Below are positions 2-34,885 of a stretch of DNA of 37,956 bases, one piece after another. The position numbers and the translations under genes were made by a program. Source of the DNA: a virus. Each line of letters begins with the position of its first letter. The first letter of the stretch is position 1. The stretch covers positions 1 through 37,956 of the IMG/VR virus record IMGVR_UViG_3300031578_000154. One strand, written 5' to 3'. Under the pieces are notes generated by a model. That model searched no databases. It saw only the letters and a program-made list of their open reading frames with translations, and had not been told where the DNA came from.

Positions 2-2221
2 AAACTTAATGATATATTTGGGGACGATCTGGCTATTGAGCTTCAACCTAATGGTATGAGGCGTAAATCTAATCTTTATGGTAACGAAGTGGATCAGGTG
101 TTCACCAATCGTCAGCTAAAGAAGTTAGCTGATGAATTGGGTATAAAGTGTATCGTAGCGAATGATTCCCATTATGTAAGACCAGAACAACACAAAGCTC
201 ATGATGTTATGTTGGCAATCGCGTCTGGACAGCCATTATCATCTGGGGCTCGTTTGAAATATGATGTTCCTGATTTCTATATGAAGTCTGAAGAAGAGGT
301 GGTCAGCAAATTAACTCGTATGTTTGGTGAAAAGTTTGCACAAGAGTGTGTGGACAACACCGTTTACTTTGCAGATAAATGTGAATTTCCAGAATGGATA
401 GATCCTAAATATTCTAATCCTTCTGGCAAAGAGCTGCCAGAGTTTCCGGTAAAGGATCAAAAAGATTATAAGAATTTTCTCCAGTGGGCTAAACAAAACC
501 CAGTAGAAGGCATTGCTGAAGATTCACTATATCTCCGTTATAAATGTGAAATTGGTTTGAATAAAAAATTTCCAGCCGACCAACAGAAGCCGTATCGTGA
601 TCGTCTTAAAGAAGAGTTTGAAGTTATTGAATTTCACGGTTTCAGTTCGTACATGCTTATTGTGGAAGATTATATCGATTTTTGTCGTGAAAACAATATT
701 AGAGTTGGACCCGGGAGGGGATCCGTTGGAGGATCTCTAATTGGTTATTTAACCGACATTCATACTGCCGACCCACTAAAGTATGGTTTAATTTTTGCCC
801 GCTTCCATAATAAAGAGAAAACCAGCTTTCCCGACATTGATATCGACTTCGCCTCGTCTAAACGTGATTTGGTACAGAAGTATATTAGAGAAAAGTATGG
901 TGAGGATTATGTAGCTCACGTTTCTAATGTGAACACAATGACTCCTAAACCATATGCTAAAGCTATTGCGCGTACATTTGAATTTGGTGGTGATCGTAAG
1001 ACGGCAGTTGCTGTTGGAATGGCAATTGCTGACGCTATACCTCCAGAATTAAAAACCGTAAGTACTGCAATAGAAAATGCCCCACTGTTTGGCGAGTACG
1101 CTAAAAAATATCCTGAGCTAGCTGAATTTGCTAAGGATTTAGGCGGTAAGGCAGTGGCGTGGTCAACCCATGCGGGTGGTTTGGTGATTGGTTCTCGCCC
1201 ACTTCCAGGTTTAATTCCACTACGTCGTGATAAAGATGGGAATATAGCTATAGAGTATGATAAAGATCGTGCCGAAGCTAACGGTTTGGTGAAAATGGAT
1301 ACGTTAGCTGTGGAAACGTTGGATAAAATTGATAATACCTACATTCTCATTAAAGCAAACGGCAAAGAGCCTCCACCAGATCCGCCAGATTATGATGAGT
1401 GTGATAAAGCAACTTATGATTTAATTTCTAGTGGAAATACCTTCGGTGTTTTTCAGCTTGGCAAGAGTGGCGGCACTGTTGATTTATGTCGTAAAGTTAA
1501 ACCAACCAATCTTGAGGACTTAGCTATTATTAACAGCTTGGCACGCCCGGCTGCACGTGATATTCGTAAAGATTTTGTTAAAACTAAGAATGGCGAAATG
1601 CCTGTAGAAATAATACACACGTCATTGGAACGTGCATTCAGACCAACTTTGGGTTTTGGTTTATATGAAGAATGTTTAATGTACTTGGCGCAGGACGTGG
1701 CTGGTTGGACTATGCATGAAGCAGATCGTTTGCGCAAGCTAACTAAAGAGAAAGGGAAAAATCCTGAGAAGGTAAAAGGGTGGAAAGAAGATTTTATTCA
1801 AGGTGCAATAAAGAATGGAATTGGTAAGAAACTTGGAGAAACTATTTGGGAAGAAGTGGTTAATAAATTTCAAGGATACGGTTTTAATCATTGCCTACAC
1901 TTTTTGGAAACTGTTGATATATATACTTATGACGGACAGTTTATTGAATCAAAACCAATCCAACAAGTTAAGTCCGGCGAGTTTGTTAAATCAAGAGATG
2001 AAGAATTTGGCGAAGATATATTTATTGAGGTAATTTGTAATCACGATAATGGAGAGTTAGATTTAGTAGAGGTAGAGTTGGATACTGGGGAAAGGATAAA
2101 ATGCACAATGAATCACAAATTCAGAACAGTGGAGAATGGAGAAATGTTACCACTGAAACAGATAATAAAGGACGGACTAACTATCGTTGTAAAAGATGTC
2201 AAAAACGATTCTGGAATATAG
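2..2221 (+). CDS. dnaE: DNA polymerase III alpha (DnaE), N-terminal part fused to split intein-N; 5' partial
   Basis: This is the replicative C-family DNA polymerase of the phage. The frame is open from base 2, so the true start lies outside the window; 739 codons are visible. The left end is the last part of the PHP domain (NDSHYV near 170). The palm follows, with GPGRGSVGGS near 709-738, the catalytic PDIDID at 830-847, and a third acidic position in KMD at about 1292-1300. The polymerase sequence runs to GYGFNH (ends 1891) and then changes at Cys 1892 into an intein N-half, ending at the stop at 2219-2221. The remainder of DnaE is encoded from 3245 onward. Active polymerase should therefore need protein trans-splicing with the product of 3134-4432. 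The family assignment is secure; splicing activity is inferred from conserved motifs. Confidence 0.93.
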   Translation, partial: KLNDIFGDDLAIELQPNGMRRKSNLYGNEVDQVFTNRQLKKLADELGIKCIVANDSHYVRPEQHKAHDVMLAIASGQPLSSGARLKYDVPDFYMKSEEEVVSKLTRMFGEKFAQECVDNTVYFADKCEFPEWIDPKYSNPSGKELPEFPVKDQKDYKNFLQWAKQNPVEGIAEDSLYLRYKCEIGLNKKFPADQQKPYRDRLKEEFEVIEFHGFSSYMLIVEDYIDFCRENNIRVGPGRGSVGGSLIGYLTDIHTADPLKYGLIFARFHNKEKTSFPDIDIDFASSKRDLVQKYIREKYGEDYVAHVSNVNTMTPKPYAKAIARTFEFGGDRKTAVAVGMAIADAIPPELKTVSTAIENAPLFGEYAKKYPELAEFAKDLGGKAVAWSTHAGGLVIGSRPLPGLIPLRRDKDGNIAIEYDKDRAEANGLVKMDTLAVETLDKIDNTYILIKANGKEPPPDPPDYDECDKATYDLISSGNTFGVFQLGKSGGTVDLCRKVKPTNLEDLAIINSLARPAARDIRKDFVKTKNGEMPVEIIHTSLERAFRPTLGFGLYEECLMYLAQDVAGWTMHEADRLRKLTKEKGKNPEKVKGWKEDFIQGAIKNGIGKKLGETIWEEVVNKFQGYGFNHCLHFLETVDIYTYDGQFIESKPIQQVKSGEFVKSRDEEFGEDIFIEVICNHDNGELDLVEVELDTGERIKCTMNHKFRTVENGEMLPLKQIIKDGLTIVVKDVKNDSGI
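1892..2218 (+). other. Split intein N-half (IntN) in DnaE
   Basis: This 109-residue segment begins with Cys1 in CLHFLETVDIYT (block A). It carries block B near its end as GERIKCTMNHKF, with the TxxH signature. It then stops without any endonuclease domain or C-terminal splicing block. The matching C-half, with block F/G and terminal Asn, is in another gene at 3134-3244. The insertion lies inside the conserved DnaE motif GYGFN-K/H-SHA, between His and Ser. Confidence 0.9.
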
Positions 2222-3141
2222 ATAAAGCTAATACTCATGTGCCAGGCTGCAAATTAAAGTTTTCTAATTTAAAAGATGGCGTTGATTTCGTTGTTTGCAA
2301 ATTGTGTGGTTGGCACGCTTTGCAACTAACTAGTCATCTGCGTGGTGTACACAATAGAGATTCAAAAAAATATAATAAACAATATGGTCCTGTTATTTGT
2401 GAAAATTCAAAACAGAATCATTGTTCCGCTGCAAAAGATGCTGGCAACTGGCTTGCAAAAGCTAAAAAGAGAGGAGATGACCTTTCCGAGTACAAAGTTA
2501 AAATGAGTAAAGCTGTTAGTGAAGCAATAATGTCTAATCCTGAGGATAGAAAACGTCGGGCGCAAGTTATGTCTAATGTCAATCGTTCCGACGTAATGCG
2601 TAAAAAAGCATCAGAAACAGCCAAGAGAACTTCTGCCAGAAAAGATGTTCAAGAAAACCGCGCAGCGCAGTTAAAAAAGTGGAGGGATAATAATCCGGAG
2701 GATTTTTATAATAAATGTATTGCGAAGATGATTTCGTCATGGCAAAGTAAACCCGAAATTGAATTGTTTACAAAAATATCTATTAGGTCAGATTATTGTT
2801 TTAAAAGAAACCAACGGGTAAAATCGAAAACATTTATATCAAAAACTAAAATAAAACAAATAGATTTTGCAGATCGTAAAAAAAGAGTATACGTAGAGTT
2901 TGATGGTATCCTACATTTCGTAGAACAAAGAATTAATCAGTTAAAACTAATACAGCAAAAAGATCGATTGCTTGACGAACACATTATTAAACACCAATGG
3001 ATGTTAATTAGAGTTTCATACGATCAATTTTCCTATCGTAAGAGTGATTATGGATTTAATAAAGATTGTTTAGATAAAGTATTTAGCATTTTAGATAATC
3101 CAACACCTGGAGTCCATTACATTGGTAAGGCATATGAGTAA
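2101..3141 (+). CDS. Free-standing Vsr-like homing endonuclease inside the fractured dnaE gene
   Basis: This 346-residue protein lies between the two dnaE halves. ATG 2101 is preceded by a strong ribosome site (GGGGAAAGG, about 6 bases upstream), so the gene overlaps the intein-N frame by 121 bases in another frame. Residues about 30-52 form a Cys/His finger (CKRC ... HVPGC). A second, MucR/Ros-like finger follows (CKLCGW ... SHLRGVH). A basic helical middle with NUMOD3-like repeats comes next. The C-terminus has a Vsr/EDxHD-type nuclease core: D255, E266-F-D268-G, H272 and D288, followed by a strand ending in LIRV. This family (I-Bth0305I-like) is known from metagenomic fractured genes. It probably spreads the split-intein break by cutting uninterrupted dnaE. 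DNA target and activity are inferred. Confidence 0.8.
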   Translation: MHNESQIQNSGEWRNVTTETDNKGRTNYRCKRCQKRFWNIDKANTHVPGCKLKFSNLKDGVDFVVCKLCGWHALQLTSHLRGVHNRDSKKYNKQYGPVICENSKQNHCSAAKDAGNWLAKAKKRGDDLSEYKVKMSKAVSEAIMSNPEDRKRRAQVMSNVNRSDVMRKKASETAKRTSARKDVQENRAAQLKKWRDNNPEDFYNKCIAKMISSWQSKPEIELFTKISIRSDYCFKRNQRVKSKTFISKTKIKQIDFADRKKRVYVEFDGILHFVEQRINQLKLIQQKDRLLDEHIIKHQWMLIRVSYDQFSYRKSDYGFNKDCLDKVFSILDNPTPGVHYIGKAYE

Positions 3142-3244
3142 CATAAAATCAGTTAAACCAATAGGTAAACATCGTGTCTACGATCTTGAAGTGAAACATC
3201 TAGATCACCAATATTATCTTTCTAATGGCGTGTTGACTAGTAAC
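3134..3244 (+). other. Split intein C-half (IntC) in DnaE
   Basis: This 37-residue segment carries block F (HRVYDLEVKHLDHQYYLSNG) and block G (GVLTSN). It ends in the required Asn, with Ser as the +1 extein residue. The penultimate residue is Ser instead of the usual His. The sequence is in frame with the DnaE C-extein. Confidence 0.88.
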
Positions 3245-4432
3245 TCTCATGCAATTTTTTATTCTATGATTGGATACCACACCGCTTATCTTAAAGCTCA
3301 TTTTCCATTGGAATTTTTAGTATCCAACCTTATGAGCGAAGTAAATTCAAATTCTTTAGGAGCAAAGGATAATATTACTCGCATCAAAGAAGAAATTAGA
3401 CAACTTAATGTTGCTATTTTACCGCCGGACATAAATACATCCAGTACAACCTATACTATTGTTGATGATAATACATTAATGACTGGGATGGATGCTCTAA
3501 AAAACATGGGAAAGGATGCTATTCCTGAGATTTTGCCTAAGCGACCCTTCTCTGGTTTTGAGGATTTTATAGCTAAAGTGGATGGACGCAAGGTTCGTGC
3601 TCCTGCTATTCAAGCTTTGGCAGCCAGCGGCAGTTTGGATTCGTTCAATCTAACCCGTAAACAGATGTATTTGTACGCTTCAGATATTAAAAAGAAGATT
3701 CAAGTGCATATGAAGAAGCCGGAAGACAAACGAGGAGAGTTTAAGTATCCGTGGCCAGAAGATATTGGTGAGTGGTCTGTAACAGAATTATACGCCATGG
3801 AGCGTGAATATCTTGGTGAGGGACTTACTGGTAACAAATTTGAGGTGTATGACAACTTTTTTACTAAAAAAGCCCCCAGCTTCAAAAAGATGCCCAACAT
3901 CCATCCACCACCGCCCGATGATATGTCAGAGAGGGATCAGAGAAAATATACTAAGCACGTTACTATGATGCAGGCAGAGGTTAAAAACTTCTTTGAGTTC
4001 AAGGTTAAAAAGGAAGATTCTAAAATAAGAGGCGAGGTAATGGCTAAGGTAACCCTAAGTGATCCTTGGGGAAATCAAATGACTATGACCTGCTTCCCAG
4101 ATGGCTGGCTGCATTTACAAAATAGAGTTGCCGAGCTTCTTAATAATAAGTATAAATTTGATACTGGTATTGGGTTATATATAAATGGAGAGCTTAATTG
4201 GTATGATGGTGATATATCATTAATATTTGGGGACGTAGCACGTTGTTGTCCTGCTCCCCAGTTGCCAGTTGATAGAGAGTCAAAGAAAGTTATGGTACGC
4301 AGACCTCGCAAGAAGACTAAAGTAGAAGATGCTGATAGGGATGTTTTATTGGAAGAAATAGAAGACGAATTAGTAGAGCGAGGGCATGCCGATCTAGACG
4401 ATGATGACGATGTACAGGATGGTTTTGTATGA
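3134..4432 (+). CDS. dnaE: Split intein-C fused to the C-terminal part of DNA polymerase III alpha (DnaE)
   Basis: The first 37 residues are an intein C-half and the next 395 are the DnaE C-terminus, beginning SHAIFYSMIGYHTAYLKA at 3245, the direct continuation of GYGFNH at 1891. After the helix-hairpin-helix region (PAIQALAASGSLD) comes the DnaE motif EREYLGEGLTG. An OB-fold-like stretch follows (about 3984-4236), then an acidic tail. I chose ATG 3134 over TTG 3122: it overlaps the endonuclease stop (ATGAGTAA), has AAGG just upstream, and gives a 37-residue intein-C, a normal size for natural split inteins. The mature visible polymerase would be 630 + 395 residues plus the missing N-terminus. 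No repair or fusion of the frame is needed if trans-splicing works. Confidence 0.92.
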   Translation: MSNIKSVKPIGKHRVYDLEVKHLDHQYYLSNGVLTSNSHAIFYSMIGYHTAYLKAHFPLEFLVSNLMSEVNSNSLGAKDNITRIKEEIRQLNVAILPPDINTSSTTYTIVDDNTLMTGMDALKNMGKDAIPEILPKRPFSGFEDFIAKVDGRKVRAPAIQALAASGSLDSFNLTRKQMYLYASDIKKKIQVHMKKPEDKRGEFKYPWPEDIGEWSVTELYAMEREYLGEGLTGNKFEVYDNFFTKKAPSFKKMPNIHPPPPDDMSERDQRKYTKHVTMMQAEVKNFFEFKVKKEDSKIRGEVMAKVTLSDPWGNQMTMTCFPDGWLHLQNRVAELLNNKYKFDTGIGLYINGELNWYDGDISLIFGDVARCCPAPQLPVDRESKKVMVRRPRKKTKVEDADRDVLLEEIEDELVERGHADLDDDDDVQDGFV

Positions 4433-4668
4433 AATATGATATTACTTACATGGAACATAATCCAAACAAAAAACCAACGAAACAGTTTGGAGCGGGTACG
4501 TGGGAAACGTATGATAAGAAGCAGACTAAATTGGATTGTAAGGATGTAGAAGAATTTCTTGACAAACTGTTTTCTTTAGAAAAACAATTTAGTATGCCCA
4601 CGGCAGTTGTAGGTAAATATACTGTATGTGCAGATTTAGGCAGAATTTATGTTAGACCTAAAAGGTAA
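4429..4668 (+). CDS. Hypothetical protein, 79 aa
   Basis: I do not recognise this small protein. Its ATG overlaps the dnaE stop in an ATGA junction, so it is probably translationally coupled to the polymerase's C-terminal gene. It is basic at both ends, contains two isolated cysteines, and shows no signal peptide, membrane segment or known motif. The C-terminal part (TAVVGKYTVCADLGRIYVRPKR) looks like paired beta strands. Coupling to dnaE and the following small genes suggests a replication or DNA-handling accessory, but that rests on position only. Confidence 0.72.
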   Translation: MKYDITYMEHNPNKKPTKQFGAGTWETYDKKQTKLDCKDVEEFLDKLFSLEKQFSMPTAVVGKYTVCADLGRIYVRPKR

Positions 4669-4679
4669 CCGAGGTTAAT

Positions 4680-5342
4680 ATGCAATGTATATCATGTCAA
4701 GCGCCCATTCATCCAGAGTTTGTGCATAGTATTAAATGCAACACATGTCCTGCGTGCGGCGGAGCTATGATGAATGATGCTGCTCAGGAATTATTAAAAG
4801 AACTTGGCGAAGCATTAGTAAAAATGCCCAACGATCCTCAAGGGATTGCCGGATGGTTGTTGTCTAATTACGAACTTCGCAAGATTGGTACCGGGGAGCC
4901 AGTAAACGAATTTTATGGAACACCTAAACAGTCTAAACCGGGACAACCACCAGGGACATTAAAGGTTCCTGAGAGCCGAATTCAGCAATTCTTTAAACAA
5001 GCAGGAGTTAAGCAGCCTAAAAAACCTGAAGATTATGCCGAGATTGTTCAAGAGATTCAAACTGCCGGCGGGGCAGATTACGGCACCGATGGGGTTGTTA
5101 TTGAGGTCAATGAGGATTTTGTAGAGGAAGCTAGGGATCCTGAATATACACAGCAGGTATTATCTGCCATGCAAGGAAAGCCTCCGAGACGAGCTAGTAT
5201 TGGCGGAGCAGCCGCAGCATCACAAGATTTAGATGCAAACATGTCCGATTTACATCCTGCTTTAAGAGGTGATCGTATGCATAGGCTTAAGCAGCAATTG
5301 GAAGTTGGTCAAGGAGGAGTGGGAAAGATTAGGCGCTCATAA
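4680..5342 (+). CDS. Zinc-ribbon protein of unknown function, 220 aa
   Basis: The N-terminus carries a zinc ribbon, CISC at residues 3-6 and CPAC roughly 20 residues later, followed by an alpha-helical stretch and a long, probably flexible region rich in Pro, Gly and Gln. GAGG lies upstream of ATG 4680. No catalytic motif is visible. The protein sits in a run of short overlapping genes between the polymerase and the recombinase. A clamp-loader, transcription or replication adaptor role would fit the place, but nothing in the sequence proves one. Confidence 0.78.
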   Translation: MQCISCQAPIHPEFVHSIKCNTCPACGGAMMNDAAQELLKELGEALVKMPNDPQGIAGWLLSNYELRKIGTGEPVNEFYGTPKQSKPGQPPGTLKVPESRIQQFFKQAGVKQPKKPEDYAEIVQEIQTAGGADYGTDGVVIEVNEDFVEEARDPEYTQQVLSAMQGKPPRRASIGGAAAASQDLDANMSDLHPALRGDRMHRLKQQLEVGQGGVGKIRRS

Positions 5343-5674
5343 TGCCACTACGTATTATTGCCAATAGAAGGATCGAATTAACCGAAGATGAGTGGAAATA
5401 TTATCAAGAGATGTGTAACCATTATATTAGCGGAAAAGAGTTATTTAATAATTTATTTGAAACCAACGAGTCTGGTTTAATAACATTTTTACGACCTCCA
5501 GATGGCAAGTTTAGCATGGAGGTGGTTTTATTTTTACAGAACATCATGGTGCATCAGTATGTTAGAAAAATGTACAGAGAGCATCAAGAGGTTTTAAACG
5601 AGCTAAAAAGCGAATTACAAAAGATAAGCTCTAAGGTCGAGCCGAAGAAGAAAAAGTCAGTCAATAAAAAATGA
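5342..5674 (+). CDS. Hypothetical protein, 110 aa
   Basis: This is a short protein whose ATG overlaps the upstream stop (TAATG). It is predicted to be mostly helical, ending in a strongly basic tail (EPKKKKSVNKK). The middle contains a segment shaped like FLRPPDGKFSMEVVLFLQN. No known family is recognised. Its stop overlaps the next start, so it belongs to a coupled set of genes leading to the recombinase. Confidence 0.75.
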   Translation: MPLRIIANRRIELTEDEWKYYQEMCNHYISGKELFNNLFETNESGLITFLRPPDGKFSMEVVLFLQNIMVHQYVRKMYREHQEVLNELKSELQKISSKVEPKKKKSVNKK

Positions 5675-6153
5675 CTGAAGTAGATTGGGATACGCCCACT
5701 TCTGAAGAAGAAGAATCGGCAGAAGAGCATGAAGAAACCCGAGGGGAAGTTGTGGAGCGTCTCATTAGCGCCATATCATTGGAGATCAATGATGCGCATA
5801 AACAGAAATATGAAATGGAAAATGCCGACAGCACCGCCGCGCTTTGTCTTGAGGCTCAGAGGGAGCTTGCGGAGTTTTTATCAGACGCAGAGTTTCTTGC
5901 CAAAGAAAAGAAAACTGAAGTCGAGAGAATAGAATCGGAGCAATATTTTTATTATAAAGGAAAAGCGGTTGGAAGAACCAGCGACGCAGCATTAAAACAA
6001 GAAACAGCCAAAGATAAAGAAGTACTAAAGGCAAAAAAAGTTCAATTCCGAGCAGAAGCCGATTATAATAAATGGCGTAATTTGTTCGGATTTCTAAAAG
6101 ACGCCCACCATTACTTCAGAGGAGTGGCTAAAGGTAAAAATGAATGGAGTTAA
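5671..6153 (+). CDS. Hypothetical coiled-coil protein upstream of the recombinase, 160 aa
   Basis: An acidic N-terminus (TSEEEESAEEHEE) is followed by long, charged, coiled-coil-like helices. The C-terminal third, near YFYYKGKAVGR and WRNLFGFLKDAHHYFRG, has aromatic residues and looks like a folded helical unit. It overlaps the previous gene by four bases and ends three bases before the recombinase start. A recombination-mediator role beside the UvsX-like gene would suit its size and place, but I see no diagnostic motif, so the function is unknown. Confidence 0.75.
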   Translation: MTEVDWDTPTSEEEESAEEHEETRGEVVERLISAISLEINDAHKQKYEMENADSTAALCLEAQRELAEFLSDAEFLAKEKKTEVERIESEQYFYYKGKAVGRTSDAALKQETAKDKEVLKAKKVQFRAEADYNKWRNLFGFLKDAHHYFRGVAKGKNEWS

Positions 6154-6155
6154 TT

Positions 6156-7196
6156 ATGGGACGACCACCCAAAAAGAAGAATAAAATAGATATTAGTACA
6201 TTACTTAAACAAGTACAAGCATCTTATGGAAAAGATAAAGGACGAGCGGGAGAGGTAAGTACCGGAAGTTCTCTCGTCCGTCCCAATCGGGATGAACAGT
6301 TTGTGTGTTGGAAAGATTCTCCTTGGGAGGCTTTGACCCAAATTCGTGGTTTACCTTTTGGGCGTATATGTCAGATTGCTGGCAAGCCAGATAGTGGTAA
6401 AAGTACCCACGCTATGCAGTTTATGAAGAACGCGCAAGATCAGGACTACGTAGTGATATTGTGGGATGCTGAGAATAAATTTAGCGCCACCAGATTCGAT
6501 AAGTATTTTGGTGGCTGCTCTGACGACTTACTATTAGTAAGATCAAAAATGATATTGGAAGGTGGTGATAGAATAGAACGTTTCATTCACGAAACGAAAA
6601 AAATGGATCCTGACGCAAAAATTCTTGTTGTTTGGGATTCAGTTGGCGGCACGCTTGCCAAAAACGAAGGAGTTGAAGTTACCGAAAAAGACGGCAAGGA
6701 TAATAAATATGAGGGAAGCATGTCTGATAGCAAACAGCTTGCTTCCGCTGCCAAAGAAAACGGAACAATCCTGCGTGGTTTTATCCGTTTAATGGAAAAA
6801 TATAAAGACAAGAAGACAAACGACGAAGCTATTTCTATATTGTTAATTAACCAAACCTATTCTAATATCGGCTCACACGGACAAAAAGAATCCGGTGGGC
6901 AGAAGGTAGAATTCTTCTCTTCAATTATCGTGCAATTGACTCGCAAGGGCGATTTAACCTTTATGCGCGATAAGATCAAAAGAAAGAAAGGTATCGTCAG
7001 CCGTGCAAAGGTATCTAAGAACCATTTGTTTGATGGGGAAGATACCATTGCTGAATTAGAGCTGGCGATTACTGCGGGCGGAATCAATCTACTCTCAGAT
7101 TACAAGATTCTAGATAAGAACTCAAAATCTGGATGGGAGTCGAATGATGATGCTGACGTAGAGGTCGAGGCTCCTCAACCGAATGAGTCTAATTAA
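6156..7196 (+). CDS. uvsX: RecA/UvsX-like recombinase
   Basis: This ATP-dependent strand-exchange protein works in phage recombination, replication and repair. Walker A is GKPDSGKST at residues 76-84, and a Walker B-like strand is ILVVWDSVGG. A RecA-type region ILLINQTYSNIGSHG ... GGQKVEFFSS, close to the loop 2 area, precedes the final beta strands. Length, 346 residues, is normal for the family. I chose ATG 6156 over ATG 6144 because GGAG lies 6 bases before it and the earlier start overlaps the upstream gene. The basic N-terminus (GRPPKKKNK) is unusual and may bind DNA. It works alongside the single-strand binding protein at 7562 and the resolvase at 8309. Confidence 0.9.
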   Translation: MGRPPKKKNKIDISTLLKQVQASYGKDKGRAGEVSTGSSLVRPNRDEQFVCWKDSPWEALTQIRGLPFGRICQIAGKPDSGKSTHAMQFMKNAQDQDYVVILWDAENKFSATRFDKYFGGCSDDLLLVRSKMILEGGDRIERFIHETKKMDPDAKILVVWDSVGGTLAKNEGVEVTEKDGKDNKYEGSMSDSKQLASAAKENGTILRGFIRLMEKYKDKKTNDEAISILLINQTYSNIGSHGQKESGGQKVEFFSSIIVQLTRKGDLTFMRDKIKRKKGIVSRAKVSKNHLFDGEDTIAELELAITAGGINLLSDYKILDKNSKSGWESNDDADVEVEAPQPNESN

Positions 7197-7542
7197 CATG
7201 CAGCAAATAGGCGATGTTAAACAGCAGGAAGCGATAGCAGAATCTCTTGCTAATACACGAATTGGTGGTAAGAATTCTGCTAATAAAATCTTATATCTTG
7301 TAAGGGTAGAAGACCCCACTGTGAAGGCTAAATGTCGGACTTATATAGGTCTTAAACTTAGAGAAGATCCGTCGATGCTCGATGTAGTAGGGTACGAAAC
7401 CAATCTACAAACGCAAAATAAATTGACTTCTTATTCAGGTGCTTTAGAACACGCCAAAAAAAGCAATAATGTAAAGATATTTCATAAACGCATACCTTGG
7501 GCACGAATTCTAGACATAGAAAATAAGTCGTATAACAAATAG
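7183..7542 (+). CDS. Hypothetical protein, 119 aa
   Basis: This protein starts inside the recombinase 3' end. A second ATG at 7198, just after the recombinase stop, is an equally possible start, as neither has a strong ribosome site. The product is basic with alternating short strands and helices. I see no recognisable domain, signal peptide or membrane segment. Its place between the recombinase and the single-strand binding protein suggests a replication/recombination partner, by position only. Confidence 0.72.
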   Translation: MSLINMQQIGDVKQQEAIAESLANTRIGGKNSANKILYLVRVEDPTVKAKCRTYIGLKLREDPSMLDVVGYETNLQTQNKLTSYSGALEHAKKSNNVKIFHKRIPWARILDIENKSYNK

Positions 7543-7561
7543 CGAAAAAAGAGGAAACAAA

Positions 7562-8230
7562 ATGAGTAATAATAAATACGGAATGGTATCATGGGACGAG
7601 GTTGAAACCCAAACAGTTTCTCCTAATCAATCACGTCGGGATCTTTTCATGAGACTCGACGCAGGTTCTAACACGATTAGAATCCTAACTAAACCGCACG
7701 AGTACCTGATGCATAGGTATAAGACCGACCCGAACGATCCTGGGTATGGTGAGCGCGTGCTGTCGAGCATTTATCACGGTAGCGATCCTTTGATGGAGCG
7801 TGGCTTCAAGCCAAAGAGGCGTTGGTTAATTGGTATCATTGATCGATCCACTCAGAGCTATAAGATTCTGGATTTGGGTGTGTCCATTTTTAAGGGCATC
7901 CAGGCTCTGACACGTGACGAGGATTGGGGAGACCCTTCTCAGTACGATGTTGATATCAAGGTAGACAAGAAGGGCGGACCGACGGGTTACTACACTGTAA
8001 CTCCTAAGCAGCCTAAACCTCTTACTCCTGCCGATTTGGAAATCAAGTCGCAGGCAGACCTTGAGGAGCTAAAGCGTAAGTGTACTCCTCCAACCGTTGA
8101 ACAGGTCAACGAGCGTATCGCAGCTATTGATGCGAAGAGTAAATCACGCAGCGGTACCGTTGCCACAGCTTCAGTTGCAAACGCAACTGACGATTACGAC
8201 TTTCCTGCAGTGGACGAGTCGGGAGCTTAA
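7562..8230 (+). CDS. gp32-like single-stranded DNA-binding protein
   Basis: This protein is expected to coat single-stranded DNA during replication and recombination. The core has the phage SSB pattern: LFMRLDAGSNTIRIL near residues 27-41, then KPKRRWLIGIIDR and a following YKILDLGVSIFKGIQAL. After these comes DWGDPSQYDVDIKV, ending in YYTVTPKQPKPL. The C-terminus is acidic with an aromatic (DDYDFPAVDESGA), as in proteins that recruit partners through their tail. GAGGAA sits 6 bases before the ATG, and the gene is more GC-rich in codon use than its neighbours. A strong terminator follows, as expected for a highly expressed gene. The assignment is by pattern, not by alignment. Confidence 0.8.
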   Translation: MSNNKYGMVSWDEVETQTVSPNQSRRDLFMRLDAGSNTIRILTKPHEYLMHRYKTDPNDPGYGERVLSSIYHGSDPLMERGFKPKRRWLIGIIDRSTQSYKILDLGVSIFKGIQALTRDEDWGDPSQYDVDIKVDKKGGPTGYYTVTPKQPKPLTPADLEIKSQADLEELKRKCTPPTVEQVNERIAAIDAKSKSRSGTVATASVANATDDYDFPAVDESGA

Positions 8231-8255
8231 TAAATAATAAGCTAATCAATAATTG

Positions 8256-8289
8256 AAAAGGGCGGCTTTCGGGCCGCCCTTTTCTTTTT
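8256..8289 (+). terminator. Rho-independent terminator after the SSB gene
   Basis: A perfect 11-base-pair stem (AAAAGGGCGGC / GCCGCCCTTTT) with the loop TTTCGG is followed by a T-rich run. It lies 25 bases after the SSB stop codon. Confidence 0.95.
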
Positions 8290-8308
8290 AGGTGTTATAT
8301 GATTATGT

Positions 8309-9502
8309 GTGGCAGGTAAATATACTCATCAGCAATGGATTTCTTTAGCCGAGGCAAGATATCCAGGACAATTTGATTATAGTCAAACTAAATACGTTGA
8401 CAGCTATCATAAAGTAATAATCAGATGTAAAAAACACGATTGTCTATTTTCCGCTGGTCCCTCAAGATTTTTAACCACATCAATAAACAGTTGCCCGGAG
8501 TGTAATGGTAATAGGCTTAACGCTGATGATTTTTTATCTAGAGCAAAAAAAAGACACCCTTTGTTAGATTTTTCAAAAACTAAATACAGAACATATCTTG
8601 ATGATGTTGTGGTTAGTTGTTCTGAGCATGGAGAGTTTTTAAAACAAGCAAAATGTCTAGTTCGTGGACAAGAAAAGGTATGTCCTGGTTGTATAAAAAG
8701 TGAGCAAGAAGAAGCTGTTAATAGAGTGGCTTACTATACTACGCGCCCCGAAAAAGGATCTGATTCTGGCACCTTCTACAAATTAAAGGTTACGCATAAA
8801 CCATCAGGTATATTATTTATTAAAGTTGGCATCACCTCAATTACACCATACAAAAGATATAAGGATAAAAGATATTTAGATTTTGAGTTTGAAGTGTTGG
8901 ATGAAGTCCATACTACAAATTTAAAATCAGCTATTTTAGAGCGTGATTACAAACGGGAAAATAAGCACAAAAGGTTCTATTTACCTAGAGATATTTGGTT
9001 TGCTGGAAGAACAGAGCTGTATGAATTGGACGGATATTATCAATTATTTTACTCGCAAGTTAAATTTATAAGAGATTCTTTATTAGAAAAACAAAATGGC
9101 AAGTGCCCGCTTTGCAGCCGGGATGTGGTAATGCCTACATTAGATCATTATCATTCAAAAAGACATTATGGCAGTGGACTTGTCCGTGGTGTTTTGTGCA
9201 ATACATGTAATAGAATTACTGGCGTAATAGAAAACAATTTAGTACGTAATAGTATAGACTTTTCTGATGCTCCAGATTTTCTTAGACAACTTGCTGACTA
9301 TTTGTTGAACAAAAGAGAAAATTATATTCACCCCACCGAAAAACTTAAAGCACCCAAGCTGATGAAATCCTCTTATAACAAGTTGGTCAAAGCTGTGGCG
9401 GGCAAACAGAAGGTTCCCAAATATACAGGCAAGTTCACCAAGCAAATTCAGAAGCTCTATGAAAAGTATGGAGTCGAGCCAGTCCTTCAGTCGAGGCTTT
9501 AA
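8309..9502 (+). CDS. GIY-YIG/treble-clef endonuclease fused to an endonuclease VII-like resolvase
   Basis: This 397-residue protein has four modules. Two N-terminal repeats of about 60 residues each hold a treble-clef finger (CKKHD ... CPEC and CSEHGEF ... CPGC), as in DNA-binding domains of homing enzymes. Residues about 150-240 resemble a GIY-YIG/T5orf172 nuclease (FYKLKV ... FIKVGITS ... RY ... FAGRTELYEL). The last 150 residues match recombination endonuclease VII: C266/C269, LDHYH at 278-282, VRGVLCNTCN with C297 and C300, and the downstream NYIHP motif of T4 gp49. It could serve as the phage Holliday-junction resolvase, as a homing enzyme, or both. The start is GTG with a weak ribosome site, directly after the terminator, so it may be expressed from its own promoter. 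Confidence 0.82.
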   Translation: MAGKYTHQQWISLAEARYPGQFDYSQTKYVDSYHKVIIRCKKHDCLFSAGPSRFLTTSINSCPECNGNRLNADDFLSRAKKRHPLLDFSKTKYRTYLDDVVVSCSEHGEFLKQAKCLVRGQEKVCPGCIKSEQEEAVNRVAYYTTRPEKGSDSGTFYKLKVTHKPSGILFIKVGITSITPYKRYKDKRYLDFEFEVLDEVHTTNLKSAILERDYKRENKHKRFYLPRDIWFAGRTELYELDGYYQLFYSQVKFIRDSLLEKQNGKCPLCSRDVVMPTLDHYHSKRHYGSGLVRGVLCNTCNRITGVIENNLVRNSIDFSDAPDFLRQLADYLLNKRENYIHPTEKLKAPKLMKSSYNKLVKAVAGKQKVPKYTGKFTKQIQKLYEKYGVEPVLQSRL

Positions 9503-9508
9503 AGAAAA

Positions 9509-10471
9509 ATGAATCTGCATGAAGCTTACGATACTCTGGGGTTAGAGGAATCTGCCTCTTCCGAAGATGTTAATAAAGCGTTTCGGAAGTTGGCTGCTCA
9601 GTATCATCCCGATTTAAATAAAGATAATGAAAAAGAATCAGAAGCTAAATTTAAAAAGATTAATGAGGCAGCACAAACTATAAAGAATCCTCCGCCCAGC
9701 ATTCCTAATATGCCTTCCGGATGGCACGGGGATATGCCTGATTGGGTTAATATTCCAATGGGTTTCAGGAATTTTCGTCGCCAACCTAAACCACCGCCAC
9801 GAGCTGATTTAAAAATATCATTCAAAGAATCTGTTTTAGGATGTAGTAAAGACATTAACTTCACACGTCATAACAAATGCTCCTCCTGCAATGGTATGGG
9901 TTCGATTTTGGAGGTGGGAAAATGTGATAAGTGCAATGGCAGAGGAGTAAATCAGTCAGTTCACCAGAGTGCTAATTCTCGGTTTCAATTTGTAACTCAG
10001 TGTGATAAATGTAATGGCTCTGGTAGGAAATCACATTCCTGTACGGCGTGCTCAGGTGGTGGAATTCCTGAACAAGTTACTCACAGGGTAACTGTTCCCG
10101 GCGGGCTGCATAACGGAGATCATGTCAGGCTAGCTAACGCTGGCAATTTCGAAGGAAATTTTATATCTGATGTTATTATAAGTGTTAGTGTTGATTCAGA
10201 TTCTGATATGGTTTTAAACGAATCAGGACGCGATGTGTTATCTACTATAGATTTATCTCTACTAGAAGCTTTAAAAGGTGTTAAGAGAAAAGTAAGAACT
10301 GTTAAAGGAGATCTTACCTTAAATATACGGGCAGGCATAAAAAATGGTAATACTATTAAGGCTAGCGGTTATGGTTCCCGAGGTCTCGGTGATCATTTAT
10401 TCACCATTAATATTAATTACCCAAGTGATACTACTTCGTTAGTAGAGTTACTGGAAAATCAGGAGAAATAA
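9509..10471 (+). CDS. dnaJ: DnaJ/Hsp40 co-chaperone
   Basis: This is a type I J-protein of phage origin. The J domain occupies residues 1-60 with HPD at 33-35. The usual Gly/Phe linker is replaced by a short Pro-rich stretch. The cysteine-rich domain begins at residue 124 with four CxxCxGxG repeats ([32 protein letters not shown]). A C-terminal substrate-binding domain follows, giving 320 residues in all, slightly shorter than bacterial DnaJ. It probably directs host DnaK to remodel replication or assembly complexes. No DnaK is encoded in this window. The stop overlaps the next start (TAATG). Confidence 0.95.
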
Positions 10472-10794
10472 TGGGATTTTTAATTTGTTGCGATAATAAA
10501 GGATGTTTTCAAAACATGGAGCCGATGCTGGATACAAATACTGATGAAGTTATTTGTACCGAGTGTGGCAAAATAATCAAGAGTGTTACAAATTTTACTA
10601 AGACTCAAATGAAGTCTTTGGGACAAACTAAGAAAGCACCCCCACCGTCAAAAGCTTTTTCAGTTGAATGTCGATTTTGTGGTGCAGTAGCTCCCCCCAT
10701 TAAAAAGGGTAAGCAAGTTTATTGCTCTAGCTGTCAGAGGCATATGGATTTTCTAACTCCGGCATTTGTACAAAGTTTTCTAACGAGTAGATGA
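10471..10794 (+). CDS. Double zinc-ribbon protein, 107 aa
   Basis: There are two zinc ribbons: residues about 7-32 (CDNKGCF ... CTECGK) and residues about 70-92 (CRFCGA ... CSSCQR). They are joined by a Pro/Lys linker. AGGAG lies just upstream of the start. The gene overlaps the primase gene in an ATGA junction, so the two are translated together. Because that primase lacks a zinc domain, this protein may supply it in trans. That is inference: the ribbons do not show the CHC2 pattern of DnaG. Confidence 0.78.
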   Translation: MGFLICCDNKGCFQNMEPMLDTNTDEVICTECGKIIKSVTNFTKTQMKSLGQTKKAPPPSKAFSVECRFCGAVAPPIKKGKQVYCSSCQRHMDFLTPAFVQSFLTSR

Positions 10795-11597
10795 ATATCC
10801 AATCCCTATCTAAGCGGATTTTATATAAATCTGAAGTGTTCGCTGAAGTTATGAGCGTTTGCAGCTCTTTATTAAAATACAGCCCAGATGCAGAAGTTGT
10901 TCGAAATTACATAAAAACTAGAGTACCATCTTATCATTGTAACGGTTTTAGTTTCGGATACTTTCCAAACAATGAACAATTACATTTATTTACGGAATAT
11001 TTGGATGAAGATTTATTATTTGATTTGGGGTTGTTTTACAAAAAGTACGTGTGTGATAGCGGCATCCCCTATGCTACATCATTTAGTATTTTGGGCGACC
11101 ATAATCTGGTTATGCCTTATCGTAATCTAAATGGCGATATCATTGCCATGGTTGGAAGATCCTTATTATCAGAGGCGGACAGGGAGTCTAAAAATATATC
11201 TAAATATAAAAACACCAAATTCCAAAAGTCATTAAATCTATTTGGACTCTATAAAGCCAAGCATAGTATTTTGGAACAAGGATATGCTGTGGTTGTGGAA
11301 GGACAATTTGATTGTATTACTTGTCATCGTTATGGTTTTAAAAATGTGGTAGCTTTGGGAGGAATTTCTTTAACTAAATTCCAACTTTACCTATTAATGA
11401 GATATACTGACACCATCTATTTGTTGCTAGATAACGATAAATCTGGACAAAAATCTGCTGAAATTCTCATCCACAGGTATAAAAAAATAGTTAATATACG
11501 TAATTTTAATTGGGCTAACAAAACCGAAAAAGACCCCGATGAACTGGTAAAAGCAGGTTATGACCTTAGTAGCATACAAGGTGATATATTAGATTAA
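10791..11597 (+). CDS. DnaG-type primase catalytic protein lacking the zinc domain
   Basis: This protein is expected to make RNA primers for lagging-strand synthesis. At 268 residues it holds a DnaG-like RNA polymerase core with a TOPRIM fold. The N-terminal subdomain has LVMPYRNLNGDIIAMVGR. The TOPRIM glutamate is E170 in VVVEGQFDC, followed by VVALGG. The metal-binding DND is at 214-216 in LLLDNDKSGQKSA, and DPDEL lies near the end. The N-terminal CHC2 zinc domain and the C-terminal helicase-binding domain of DnaG are both absent. It overlaps the zinc-ribbon gene by four bases. A TOPRIM protein of another type is possible but less likely. Confidence 0.85.
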   Translation: MNIQSLSKRILYKSEVFAEVMSVCSSLLKYSPDAEVVRNYIKTRVPSYHCNGFSFGYFPNNEQLHLFTEYLDEDLLFDLGLFYKKYVCDSGIPYATSFSILGDHNLVMPYRNLNGDIIAMVGRSLLSEADRESKNISKYKNTKFQKSLNLFGLYKAKHSILEQGYAVVVEGQFDCITCHRYGFKNVVALGGISLTKFQLYLLMRYTDTIYLLLDNDKSGQKSAEILIHRYKKIVNIRNFNWANKTEKDPDELVKAGYDLSSIQGDILD

Positions 11598-11624
11598 GAA
11601 CTATTTATTTTTATCAGGAGATTA

Positions 11625-12074
11625 ATGGTTGATCGGTCAAAGAATCGAAGTGATAAGTATCAATGGGTTTTAGTTGAATCTCCTTGCTCACCAGAAATGC
11701 TGACAGAAGTCGCTGACTCTGAAGGTATCAGCGCTCAATTAAACCCCTGGGGCTATAATGAAGAATTATTGAATCTTAAAGATAGCCTTAAAGTTGCCTT
11801 CTGGAGAATTGTTAATACTCAGCTGACAGCTCGGCAAAGTGAGGTCATCCATTTGTATGCCCAAGGCTTCACTCAAACCGAAATTGCTAAAAAGCTTAAT
11901 GTAAATCAAAGCAGCATTACGAAATCTATTAATGGAAATTGTGATTATCGTAATGGTAAGAAAATATACGGCGGCGCTAGAAAGAAAATACAAAAGATTG
12001 CAGAGCAAGACCAGGAAATACAGGACATATTCCGCAGAATACAGGAATTACAGAGTGATGACGACATCTATTGA
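11625..12074 (+). CDS. Sigma region 4-like / HTH transcription factor, probably C-terminally truncated
   Basis: The centre (residues about 66-105: LTARQSEVIHLYAQGFTQTE, then IAKKLNVNQSSITKSING) is a sigma-70 region 4 or LuxR-type helix-turn-helix that would contact promoter DNA or RNA polymerase. It lacks region 2, so it is not a complete sigma factor. A good AGGAG ribosome site precedes ATG 11625. The frame ends at an HNH endonuclease start (TGATG), and a reading frame resembling a lost C-terminus appears after that endonuclease (13087-13173). The protein may therefore have been shortened by insertion. A role in switching to late gene expression is plausible, given that it sits before the virion genes. 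Confidence 0.78.
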   Translation: MVDRSKNRSDKYQWVLVESPCSPEMLTEVADSEGISAQLNPWGYNEELLNLKDSLKVAFWRIVNTQLTARQSEVIHLYAQGFTQTEIAKKLNVNQSSITKSINGNCDYRNGKKIYGGARKKIQKIAEQDQEIQDIFRRIQELQSDDDIY

Positions 12075-13096
12075 TGAAATATTGTACCAAATGTAAAGAG
12101 ATTAAGGACACGTCATGTTTTTCGAAGAATGCTCAGTTACTCGATGGGTTCCAAGCATTTTGTAAGCAATGTTGTAACAGATATAGGGAGAAATATAAAG
12201 CAGCTATACCAATTCTTCCTACCAACGGGATACTTAAATGTACCTGTTGCAGGGTAGAGAAGCCGATAGATTGTTTTAACAAATCAGTTACAGCCAAGAC
12301 TGGACATTCTACTATATGTCGTGATTGTTGTATTAAGTTTTCAAAAAAAAGAAATGAAGAGTACGTAAAACAACACGGCATTAGCGAGTACAGTCAGAAT
12401 CGCAAAGATAGGGTTATGTGGATCCGCGCTATTAAAGCCAACAAGCCATGTGCAGATTGCGGAGTAGTGTATGAGCCCAAGTGTATGGATTATGATCATT
12501 TAAGAGATAAAATTAAACCGGTATCTAGGATGATTTTAGATAACACTTCTAAAGAAGTTATATTAAAAGAGATAGAAAAATGCGAGCTAGTTTGTTTGCT
12601 CTGCCACAATAAGAGAACTTATATGCGTCAAAAAAGACGTGATAAATCTTTATATACTAACACTGTTAATAGAAATTTTGAAATAATTAAGGAAGCAAAA
12701 CAGACACCATGTGCTTATTGTGGCGTACAAAGAGAAGAATACAATATGCAATTTGATCATATTGATTCCAAAACTAAATTTAAAGACATTTGTCAACTTA
12801 AAAATTATAAAACCGAAATATTATTGAAGGAATTAGAAAAATGTCAAGTTATTTGTGCAATGTGTCATCGTAAGAAATCGTTGTTGCAGCAAAAGATGGG
12901 ACAATATCCAGTTAAAAGAAGTAAGCCTAAAAAGCCTTATGTAGGCGACACAGATCAAGAATGTGTTCGCTGTCACGATATAAAGTCATATGATCAGTTT
13001 ATTAAGCATGCCAAGACCAGGAGCGGGTATAATAGCTGGTGCAAACCATGCATGAACGAATATAGACGTGAAAGGCGAGCAGCCAAGAGGAGATAG
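12074..13096 (+). CDS. Homing-type endonuclease with two HNH domains and flanking zinc fingers
   Basis: This 340-residue protein is built of repeated metal-binding units. Two N-terminal treble-clef fingers (CTKCKEIKDTSCF ... CKQCC; CTCCRVEKPIDCF ... CRDCC) and one at the C-terminus (CVRCHDIKSYDQF ... CKPC) bracket two HNH domains. HNH 1 starts at C126/C129 with the acidic-His pair in DYDHL and ends CLLCHNK. HNH 2 starts at C213/C216 with QFDHID and ends CAMCHRK. The start overlaps the upstream stop (TGATG). The gene is AT-rich compared with the virion genes. It looks like a selfish homing endonuclease inserted at the 3' end of the sigma-like gene. A role in phage DNA packaging is less likely, given two HNH copies and the finger architecture. 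Confidence 0.85.
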   Translation: MKYCTKCKEIKDTSCFSKNAQLLDGFQAFCKQCCNRYREKYKAAIPILPTNGILKCTCCRVEKPIDCFNKSVTAKTGHSTICRDCCIKFSKKRNEEYVKQHGISEYSQNRKDRVMWIRAIKANKPCADCGVVYEPKCMDYDHLRDKIKPVSRMILDNTSKEVILKEIEKCELVCLLCHNKRTYMRQKRRDKSLYTNTVNRNFEIIKEAKQTPCAYCGVQREEYNMQFDHIDSKTKFKDICQLKNYKTEILLKELEKCQVICAMCHRKKSLLQQKMGQYPVKRSKPKKPYVGDTDQECVRCHDIKSYDQFIKHAKTRSGYNSWCKPCMNEYRRERRAAKRR

Positions 13097-13173
13097 AGCA
13101 GAAGTTAGGGATAACTGAAGTAGTGATATCTGGGGCTAAGAAGAAGGTGTTCCGAAAGACTACAGAGGGGTGA
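13087..13173 (+). pseudogene. Orphan C-terminal coding remnant after the HNH gene
   Basis: After the HNH stop, another frame reads EEIEQKLGITEVVISG, then AKKKVFRKTTEG and a stop at 13171-13173. It is protein-like, has no start codon, and begins within the last codons of the HNH gene. The simplest reading is the severed C-terminus of the sigma-like protein whose frame ends at 12074. Confidence 0.45.
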
Positions 13174-13191
13174 TTGGTTAGAAGGTTAGTA

Positions 13192-13225
13192 AAAAGCCGC
13201 TGGGATTCCGGCGGCTTTTCTTTTT
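13192..13225 (+). terminator. Rho-independent terminator at the end of the replication region
   Basis: The stem AAAAGCCGC / GCGGCTTTT extends inward by T-G, G-C and G-C pairs to the loop GATT. This gives about 12 pairs and is followed by TTTTCTTTTT. It separates the replication/expression block from the virion block. Confidence 0.93.
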
Positions 13226-13293
13226 ATCCACAGGATATTTCTACTATTTATTTCATATTCAGAATGAGCTTTCGTGTATTTTTGGAGACAAGC

Positions 13294-13761
13294 ATGGATA
13301 AATTTTCACTTGATTATGCAGCGCTGGGTGGTACATTATCGCGACCCAAACATTATCGTTATGAAGATGTGAAGCATAAGTTGGTCAAAGTAGCGTTCGA
13401 TGTTGTACGTTTTATGGATAGTGACGATATTGATGGATTATGGCAAGTCCAGAAAACTGATGATGGCGACGTAATTGTAGCCATGTATGAGCAAACTGCT
13501 GGTCCCAAAGAGTCGAAAGCTGGATGGGAAGCATGTACCGACAAAACCAACTCAGTAGTTAATGTGTTTTATAAAGGCGCATCTGTAACAGCTATTGGAT
13601 TGGACAAGATTGGTGTGCCAAAGGAAGATGCCCATATAATTTGCGAAAGTTTACCCCGGAAACTTGCGGCAGATTCGTCTTTCCGTAAAAATATGTTAGA
13701 CGAATTGTCGGAACATGATCGATCTGAACTGTTAAGGGAACACCCCGAGCTGAGAGAGTAA
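13294..13761 (+). CDS. Hypothetical protein, 155 aa, first gene of the virion block
   Basis: I chose ATG 13294 because GGAG lies about 7 bases upstream. The frame is open farther left, but that part runs through the terminator and would not be translated. The protein has a compact mixed fold (KLVKVAFDVVRFMD ... LWQVQKTDDGDVIVAMYE) and an acidic helical C-terminus. No family is recognised. It is the first gene after the terminator and is followed three bases later by another unknown virion-region gene. Confidence 0.75.
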   Translation: MDKFSLDYAALGGTLSRPKHYRYEDVKHKLVKVAFDVVRFMDSDDIDGLWQVQKTDDGDVIVAMYEQTAGPKESKAGWEACTDKTNSVVNVFYKGASVTAIGLDKIGVPKEDAHIICESLPRKLAADSSFRKNMLDELSEHDRSELLREHPELRE

Positions 13762-13764
13762 TAC

Positions 13765-15348
13765 ATGACGCATAACATTACTAATTTGAAAAATTTAGTA
13801 TCTGAGCTAAGAACAAAACTAGCTGAAGGTGATAAGTTCTTTACTGCTCAATTAGCCACCCGGTTAACCAAAGCGGTAGCTAATTACCCACAAGATCAGA
13901 CGATCATCCAGATGGCATCGTTCCTGACTAATCGGGTTCAAAATGGCGGCACCCTTATTACGCGTGCTGAATTGCGAGATGTATATCACAGGTTGTATAC
14001 TAATAATACATCTTGCGGCTCATTTCTTGAGTCGGAGTTGGGTAAAAAAGCTGAAGCTCCGGAACGCATACCCATCAATCCAGAACCTAAAACCGATATG
14101 TACGAACATTCGGATAAGATGTTAGTTAGCGCATTAGAAGCAGTGTTCGATAAAGAGGCGGAATATAAGCCTTATTCTAAGGATGTTGCCAAAATTGCAG
14201 AAGCTAATTGTAAACGAGTTTTACCTGGCAATCCTAAGGTTAAGACGGTTGCGGGGAACGAGGATGCCATACTGTGCGAAGTAGTTTATGAGACTCCTAA
14301 GGGACGAAGTCATGTACTTGTGCCCGTGGAAGTAAGCGCTAATAAAGCTTTGTTACCTAATTCTTTTGTTACTCAAGAAGGCTTTACTAGGCTGACCGAA
14401 AAAACTCTTGCTGACTATATTGTTAAGACTGCGGGGCAGAAGCTCCGCGTGGATGTTAAGCAGATTTTAGACATAATCAATAGTGCCAAATATGGGACAA
14501 CGGAACCCACCTCTGAGGTGGAGAAGATTGTATTAATGGCAGGTTTACGTGCTGGAACTCCAGCTTCTCATGATCCTAATGCCATTTTGCAACAGGTAAT
14601 GGAACCGCAAGGAGCGCCCGGACATGAGCTTGAGATAGCAAAGAGCCCCGAGGTTCAATCATTTGCGAAACATTTAAGTACGGCTGCAGGCACGGCGGAA
14701 TTTGTATTCGGAACGAAAACTGCAGATGCCGGACGCAAGATGATTAATCAGGCTTTAAATGGCTTTGGTTACTCTGATTTTCAGATCAATGTAGCAGATG
14801 TGTCGGAAAGTCACATAATCTACGCAGTAGCTTTGAAGAATACTGGGTTCAAGGTTCCCGTAAAGATTGAAAAATCATTACCCACCTATCCTACTGTTAT
14901 CGTAGCTTGTGGTCAACCAGCTGAATTCAGTAAGGATGGAATTGATGGTGTGGGTCAAGTTGACGGAACTGCCCGAGCGGTTGGTTTGGGATTTGATCTG
15001 GGGAAGCCTGGACATCTCATTGAGAAAGTTAAGCAGGCGTGTGAATGTCAGGACTTTGCTAGAGCTGGAGAGGTGTTGGGAGCCATTACTGAAACTGGCG
15101 ATAAGACGGCTTATCACCACGCATTTGCCATTTATCATGCGGCATTGTCAGGTAATAAGAAAGCAACCCGCCGTGTAAAGACTATCAAATTATCAGACGG
15201 CAATGAGGTTTGTGAGCAGACCTTCCTACCGCCGGATAAGGTTTACATTGACGAGAACGGCGTAGCACATGCCAAGTATCGTCAAAACGAAGAGAAGACC
15301 GAGCCGGCAGGCGGCTTCATGAACGCTAAGATTCTTTTAGGACTGTAA
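13765..15348 (+). CDS. Large hypothetical, probably structural, protein, 527 aa
   Basis: This is a soluble protein with a helical N-terminus (residues 1-90) and two alpha/beta portions (about 130-230 and 290-400). The second portion has repeated strands such as SESHIIYAVALKN and YPTVIVACGQPAE. No membrane segment or catalytic motif is visible. Codon use is richer in GC than in the homing genes, as is typical of the virion block. Length and place suggest a virion or internal head protein. The function is unknown. Confidence 0.78.
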   Translation: MTHNITNLKNLVSELRTKLAEGDKFFTAQLATRLTKAVANYPQDQTIIQMASFLTNRVQNGGTLITRAELRDVYHRLYTNNTSCGSFLESELGKKAEAPERIPINPEPKTDMYEHSDKMLVSALEAVFDKEAEYKPYSKDVAKIAEANCKRVLPGNPKVKTVAGNEDAILCEVVYETPKGRSHVLVPVEVSANKALLPNSFVTQEGFTRLTEKTLADYIVKTAGQKLRVDVKQILDIINSAKYGTTEPTSEVEKIVLMAGLRAGTPASHDPNAILQQVMEPQGAPGHELEIAKSPEVQSFAKHLSTAAGTAEFVFGTKTADAGRKMINQALNGFGYSDFQINVADVSESHIIYAVALKNTGFKVPVKIEKSLPTYPTVIVACGQPAEFSKDGIDGVGQVDGTARAVGLGFDLGKPGHLIEKVKQACECQDFARAGEVLGAITETGDKTAYHHAFAIYHAALSGNKKATRRVKTIKLSDGNEVCEQTFLPPDKVYIDENGVAHAKYRQNEEKTEPAGGFMNAKILLGL

Positions 15349-15358
15349 AGGGTGATCA

Positions 15359-19730: not shown

Positions 19731-19731
19731 T

Positions 19732-34739: not shown

Positions 34740-34885
34740 TGATGTTTATTAAGCAGGGAGAACCTGGAAAGATTTTAAAAGTTTACAAAGAAGGTGAACT
34801 TAAGCAGGACGAAGAAGAGGAAAAGCGCGCTTTGAAAGACCGAGAGATTAAAACTTCCGGAGAGAATAAATGCTTATCAAATTAG
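34739..34885 (+). CDS. Small charged protein, 48 aa, before the protease
   Basis: ATG 34739 overlaps the upstream stop, and a second ATG follows at 34742. The product (MMFIKQGEPGKILKVYKEGE and an acidic/basic tail) is short and charged. It overlaps the protease start by 16 bases, in another frame. T4 carries tiny head-core proteins beside its head protease gene, but no sequence link is claimed. Confidence 0.6.
   Translation: MMFIKQGEPGKILKVYKEGELKQDEEEEKRALKDREIKTSGENKCLSN

Follow-up and report, generated by a model that had tools for sequence, protein, structure and literature searches.

A dnaE gene broken by a split intein and an overlapping Vsr-like endonuclease gene in uncultured phages

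In a 38-kb fragment of a phage genome (IMG/VR record IMGVR_UViG_3300031578_000154, positions 1-37,956; these 37,956 nt are hereafter the window), dnaE, the gene for the replicative DNA polymerase, is broken into two open reading frames (ORFs). One half of a split intein is fused to each of them, and a free-standing endonuclease gene lies between the intein halves and overlaps both. The evidence supports a fractured dnaE with a split intein and a Vsr-like, homing-type endonuclease. We consider it highly probable that the whole is a mobile gene-breaking element of the phage polymerase gene, with homing and protein trans-splicing as its presumed activities.

Two dnaE ORFs and the halves of one intein

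The features of the broken locus are the following:

2-1891, plus strand: N-terminal extein of DnaE, cut at its 5' end by the start of the window (PF07733, 4e-66; PF17657, 2e-33)
1892-2221, plus strand: N-terminal intein half (IntN), 109 aa and a stop codon, with Cys1 at 1892 and block B CTMNHKF (NCBIfam and Pfam intein models, PDB structures of DnaE inteins, family alignment)
2092-2096, plus strand: AAGGA, a Shine-Dalgarno-like stretch ahead of the endonuclease ATG (read from the sequence; function presumed)
2101-3141, plus strand: endonuclease ORF, 346 aa, with a ROS/MucR-like zinc-finger region, a helical linker and a Vsr-like nuclease (27 homologues, AlphaFold model, fold search)
2101-2221, plus strand: overlap of IntN and the endonuclease, 121 nt, in different frames (ORF coordinates)
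2743-3132, plus strand: Vsr/EDxHD-like nuclease domain, residues 215-344 of the endonuclease (1cw0, Z 12.2; 3r3p, Z 10.8; family alignment)
3134-3244, plus strand: C-terminal intein half (IntC), 37 aa, with its ATG at 3134 and ending in LTSN (TIGR01443 above cut-off; joined alignment to 4kl5 and 2keq)
3245-4432, plus strand: C-terminal extein of DnaE, SHAIFYS..., with the +1 Ser at 3245, comprising helix-hairpin-helix and C-terminal parts (HHH_6, 6e-19; phrog_405, 4e-35)

The first junction, ...GYGFNH|C (the bar marks the boundary between extein and intein), is read at 1889-1894, with the Cys1 codon at 1892-1894 and the IntN stop codon at 2219-2221. The C-terminal stretch of IntC is ...VYDLEVKHLDHQYYLSNGVLTSN, after which DnaE continues from the Ser at 3245. 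An earlier reading of this DNA, made from the sequence only, had the DnaE frame stop after an intein half with Cys1 at 1892 and resume at 3245 after a half ending in Asn; both coordinates hold (...LTSN|SHAIFYS), and the flanking segments match DnaE and intein domains. The separate endonuclease gene that it saw in the gap is present and complete but does not simply lie there: it starts inside IntN, in the -1 frame relative to the latter, shares its first 121 nt with IntN (stop codon included) and ends 8 nt inside IntC. The uncut N-extein, present in the contig L001 (2299-4662; our locus numbers are used throughout), comprises 788 aa.

The two halves match the intein_Nterm and intein_Cterm models, respectively, and when they are joined in silico, the alignment to cyanobacterial DnaE inteins of the Npu type extends across the split and as far as the terminal Asn (4kl5, E 2.6e-12). 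Together with the domain searches and about 30 homologous loci, this end-to-end alignment bears out the split intein proposed in the sequence-only reading. All residues expected of a splicing Hint-fold intein are present in the window, namely, Cys1, the block B Thr and His (CTMNHKF), the terminal Asn and the +1 Ser (LTSN|S). Because Cys1, the block B residues and the Asn|Ser junction are intact, the two proteins would be expected to trans-splice into one DnaE. Ser1 with Ser+1 takes the place of Cys1 in 22 of the 27 split-intein loci, and residue 1 differs even between close relatives (Cys in the window, Ser in L003; Cys in L016, Ser in L048). Other cysteines are still present in these intein halves.

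The cyanobacterial split DnaE inteins of the Npu and Ssp type reside in the same host protein, are the nearest inteins in sequence, are split at a similar position and share the penultimate Ser. The cyanobacterial junction is Y|CFNK. In contrast, the phage insertion lies some 4 residues further downstream, at GFN-x|SHA, with Ser in the +1 position in every member; the cyanobacterial type of insertion, before the Cys of CFNKSH and with Cys as +1, was not found in the family. The phage loci further differ from the cyanobacterial ones in the presence of the endonuclease, the mostly adjacent halves and the prevalence of Ser1.

The endonuclease and the states of one dnaE site

The AlphaFold model of the endonuclease, built from 27 homologues, has a mean pLDDT (predicted local distance difference test) of 86.8; the first 13 residues, encoded in the overlap with block B of IntN, have values below 50. 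In a fold search, the nuclease domain of the model matched E. coli Vsr (1cw0) and the homing endonuclease I-Bth0305I (3r3p) at the Z scores listed above, and Asp255, Glu266, Asp268, His272 and Asp288 are invariant across the 27 homologues. The window protein thus shares both the fold and the conserved Asp, Glu and His residues with the Vsr/EDxHD nucleases, in agreement with the Vsr-like assignment made from the sequence. Unlike in I-Bth0305I and Vsr, the putative DNA-binding part is zinc-finger and helical, and the nuclease region of the window protein matched no Pfam, PHROG or NCBIfam model. The ROS/MucR-like zinc-finger signal is weak in the window protein (PF05443 at 2.1e-5, slightly below the Pfam cut-off, in the L003 homologue; 2jsp, E 0.04). 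In most members, the endonuclease overlaps IntN by 88-148 nt, with its ATG in or near block B, and in others, by 55-70 nt. Upstream of the internal ATG, all 12 overlapping loci examined have an AAGG- or GGAG-like stretch, which makes initiation of endonuclease translation within IntN plausible.

Searched with the endonuclease alignment, 2.9 million viral contigs yielded 27 loci, all 27 directly after the IntN of a dnaE interrupted at the same codon, GFN-x|SHA. An IntN scan added further loci. The element is present in about 30 lineages of uncultured phages, on contigs of up to 459 kb. Among 84,980 cellular genomes, the sole IntN relative comes from a Thioploca metagenome-assembled genome; it is on a contig of 3.2 kb and low coverage, on which the phage gene that follows dnaE is present as well. 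No named phage isolate among 50,697 phage records matched IntN or the endonuclease. Rhodococcus phages NiceHouse and Francesca stood out by longer BLAST coverage and were set aside, the GFN/FNxSH junction not being found in their proteins. A plasmid search returned one weak match, a gyrB intein, and a scan with a degenerate DNA pattern returned chance ORFs for the most part, with 3 of 31 real.

Across the relatives, this one site is found in several states. It is empty in L046 (N-extein 68% identical, GYGFNK|SHAVFYS), L047, L050 and L051, and is occupied in L174 by a contiguous cis mini-intein that lacks the endonuclease. The dnaE of L158 stays open as a single frame across the intein (PF14890, residues 18-428, above cut-off), and the endonuclease is encoded in another frame: there are no stops in the intein frame over 341 endonuclease codons, compared with 19.2 +/- 2.8 in 2000 shuffles. 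The stop count matches the shuffled expectation in 24 of 24 split loci tested. L158 is reminiscent of the ShiLan element (PMC11855218), an HNH endonuclease hidden in another frame of a phage methylase gene, in that the endonuclease is overprinted on an insertion left open in the host frame; however, ShiLan lacks a splicing domain and its nuclease is of the HNH type, whereas L158 combines an intein with a Vsr-like nuclease. The unsplit L158 intein starts with Thr (GFNK|TLTED; 4307-4312), not with Cys or Ser.

The split state with an overlapping endonuclease is found in the window, L016, L048, L162 and many other loci. A different endonuclease (PHROGs 559/3339) accompanies the split in L049 (the same as L165; the contig ends inside the endonuclease) and L166, and a chimeric one, with an N-terminus of the latter type, is present in L003 (by profile match) and L137 (by inspection of the alignment). 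L176 is split and retains remnants of the endonuclease, on a contig with 1.6x coverage, so that sequencing is a possible cause. In L006/L010, the halves are dispersed on the same strand, with about 11 kb between them, and the endonuclease still adjoins IntN.

Some of these phages show further interruptions of dnaE. In the phage of L158 (L177, G013:C1:117000-131500), dnaE is also broken upstream, into ORFs at 1417-4041 and 9067-13122, about 5 kb apart; an in-frame intein (MSTD|CFVKGTLVL...VSN|CHYCLK) is present in the N-terminal ORF, and between the pieces lies the gene for an AAA-type ATPase, apparently with an intein of its own. In a 309-kb phage contig (L178, the reverse complement of G011:C1:72500-90000, IMGVR_UViG_3300037010_002844), dnaE apparently consists of about 7 ORFs (~2185-15930), mostly joined by IntN/IntC pairs (e.g., LTGPARG|CFVPETRVL, GIFQ|CVDQDTAVL, KKTYS|CLTGDTHIL, GYGFNK|SLYF), with endonucleases between them. 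Jointly, these pieces span DnaE residues 22-1116 of the L006 reference; if real, this arrangement would require about 6 splicing events for one polymerase. In L136, L148, L150 and L164, there is a second insertion, of about 1.1-1.3 kb, that splits the DnaE profile around position 408-411, near the PGRGS motif.

Probable mobility of the element and possible origin of the split

As a mobile element, the insert would act as follows. The endonuclease, translated in the other frame from the ATG inside block B of IntN (as the layout of the locus allows), would cut the uninterrupted dnaE of a co-infecting phage at the conserved GFN-x|SHA codons, and repair would copy the whole insert, that is, IntN, the endonuclease and IntC, into the cut site. 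With the host frame broken, the products would be DnaE-IntN and IntC-DnaE, which would associate and trans-splice into a DnaE of about 1,180 aa.

Homing of the intein and the endonuclease between phages is suggested by the fact that the insert in the window is nearer to that of distant phages than to that of the nearest host relative. In the extein tree, the window groups with L003 (76-78% identity, support 99/99), followed by the empty L046. The window IntN is 74% identical to that of L048 vs 62% to that of L003, and the endonuclease, 63% vs 55%. Among the informative sites of the N-extein, 225 unite the window with L003 and 48 with L048, compared with 27 and 54, respectively, in the endonuclease (p 0.0036), and 5 and 16 in IntN (p 0.027). 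The nucleotide identity between the window and L048 is 74% in the non-overlapped part of IntN and 68% in the endonuclease vs 57% and 55% in the exteins; the synonymous divergence (dS) of IntN is about 0.9-1.1, a value partly lowered by the overlap, and that of the exteins is saturated. L139/L145 represent a second apparent swap, judged by nearest neighbours; elsewhere, descent is predominantly vertical.

The following observations weigh against a mobile, trans-splicing element. A clade of the window and L003 is not rejected by approximately unbiased tests on the short alignments of the intein and the endonuclease (p 0.17-0.23), which leaves distances and site counts as the basis of the case for horizontal spread. 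There is also a strong signal of vertical descent across the family (Mantel r 0.54-0.61 with the exteins). The penultimate residue of IntC in the window is Ser rather than His, as in the cyanobacterial DnaE inteins. Finally, opposite charge of the halves, considered as support for assembly in trans, holds in the window (IntN -11, IntC +2) but not across the family.

It is conceivable, albeit improbable, that the element has been domesticated, being inherited vertically, with the endonuclease a relic or recruited for another role and the two-gene DnaE trans-spliced as in cyanobacteria. Within close subclades, the nearest neighbours of extein, intein and endonuclease are indeed concordant. However, the endonuclease is intact, with catalytic residues invariant in 27 lineages; empty sites are found between occupied lineages; the distances are discordant for the window/L003 and L139/L145; and in some loci, endonucleases have been swapped or are chimeric.

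The break is not due to chance or an assembly slip because a second contig, L001 (IMGVR_UViG_3300031673_000213), is identical to the window across 10,429 bases compared and, in addition, contains the 5' end of dnaE that the window lacks, and because the same dnaE codon is interrupted in about 30 other lineages. In the window, 19 stops fall in the intein frame along the endonuclease vs 19.5 expected from synonymous shuffles, which excludes a hidden intact intein reading; with as many stops as the shuffles give, the split is real. All this makes it very unlikely that the break is a sequencing frameshift, or else a programmed -1 frameshift yielding a DnaE-IntN-endonuclease fusion without separate trans-splicing halves. 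The -1 frame of the endonuclease and the 121-nt overlap would suit such a fusion, but no slippery X XXY YYZ heptamer was found in the IntN frame of the window, a Shine-Dalgarno-like stretch precedes the internal ATG, and in L003, the endonuclease starts after the IntN stop. Although Vsr-like endonucleases also occur in phage introns (PMC12350094), a self-splicing RNA intron in the gap, with dnaE joined at the RNA level, can practically be discounted, given that the window has no match to Rfam, group I and group II introns included, at the gathering threshold and that intein-coding sequence with conserved splicing blocks lies at both edges of the gap in every member.

For the mobile element that we favor, the states of the dnaE site can be arranged in a series, in a presumed direction, from the empty site through the cis mini-intein and the cis intein with an overprinted endonuclease to the split and dispersed forms. 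Tentatively, we propose that the overprinted endonuclease itself breaks the gene, a possible route that we stop short of favoring: an overlapping gene would arise within an intact cis intein, as in L158, stops in the dispensable linker and a new start before IntC would then produce a split intein, and the halves would subsequently drift apart, as in L006. If so, a single phage dnaE site would keep every stage of split-intein birth.

Window context and phage replication

Elsewhere in the window, the portal protein gene (phrog_16240; 25372-28422) contains an in-frame intein with LAGLIDADG-like motifs, and an ORF resembling a head maturation protease (34870-37956) contains another (Hom_end_hint, 2e-9; Intein_splicing, 2e-8), the third intein of the fragment. 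A free-standing endonuclease VII-like gene with Cys-rich repeats at the N-terminus (PF02945, 2e-12) is located at 8309-9502; L016 has a homologue at the corresponding position, and L002 encodes a shorter endonuclease that is related at the C-terminus. The head domain of a CCA-adding enzyme or poly(A) polymerase (PF01743, 7e-15) is encoded at 19711-20484, and no tRNA genes were found in the phage fragment.

Among ten large related contigs, all ten encode DnaE (PF07733), two encode a family A polymerase and none was found to encode a family B polymerase, so that DnaE is the sole polymerase of families A, B and C found in eight of the ten. FNKSH is a conserved DnaE motif, and because the break falls within it, the unspliced halves should be inactive, judging from what is known of DnaE. 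Splicing would then be essential to the replication of these phages and may be so for the phage of the window, which itself is a 38-kb fragment.

Dassa et al. 2009 reportedly described fractured genes, of eight types and mainly in phages, with split inteins and a family of Vsr-related homing endonucleases. Those reported genes resemble the loci described here in that a split intein interrupts a gene for a conserved enzyme and a free-standing gene for a Vsr-like endonuclease separates the two halves. The present family differs in several respects: the broken gene is dnaE, with the break at a single fixed codon across about 30 lineages; the endonuclease ORF extends, out of frame, into both intein halves and encodes ROS/MucR-like zinc fingers; and there are unsplit-overprinted as well as dispersed states. 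Thus, fractured genes themselves were already known; the present family stands out by a constant insertion site in dnaE that is close to, but distinct from, the cyanobacterial site, by the conserved out-of-frame overlap of the endonuclease and the intein, and by the unusually complete set of states.

The family is a source of about 30 natural split inteins, the majority of which have Ser1/Ser+1 nucleophiles. Few split inteins splice without cysteine nucleophiles, and such inteins are in demand as tools (PMC11923092). With empty, cis, overprinted, split, swapped-endonuclease and dispersed states all at one codon position, the family allows ideas on how split inteins arise and spread to be tested. 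With trans-splicing in the replicative polymerase of large phages, the copying of their genomes would depend on protein ligation.
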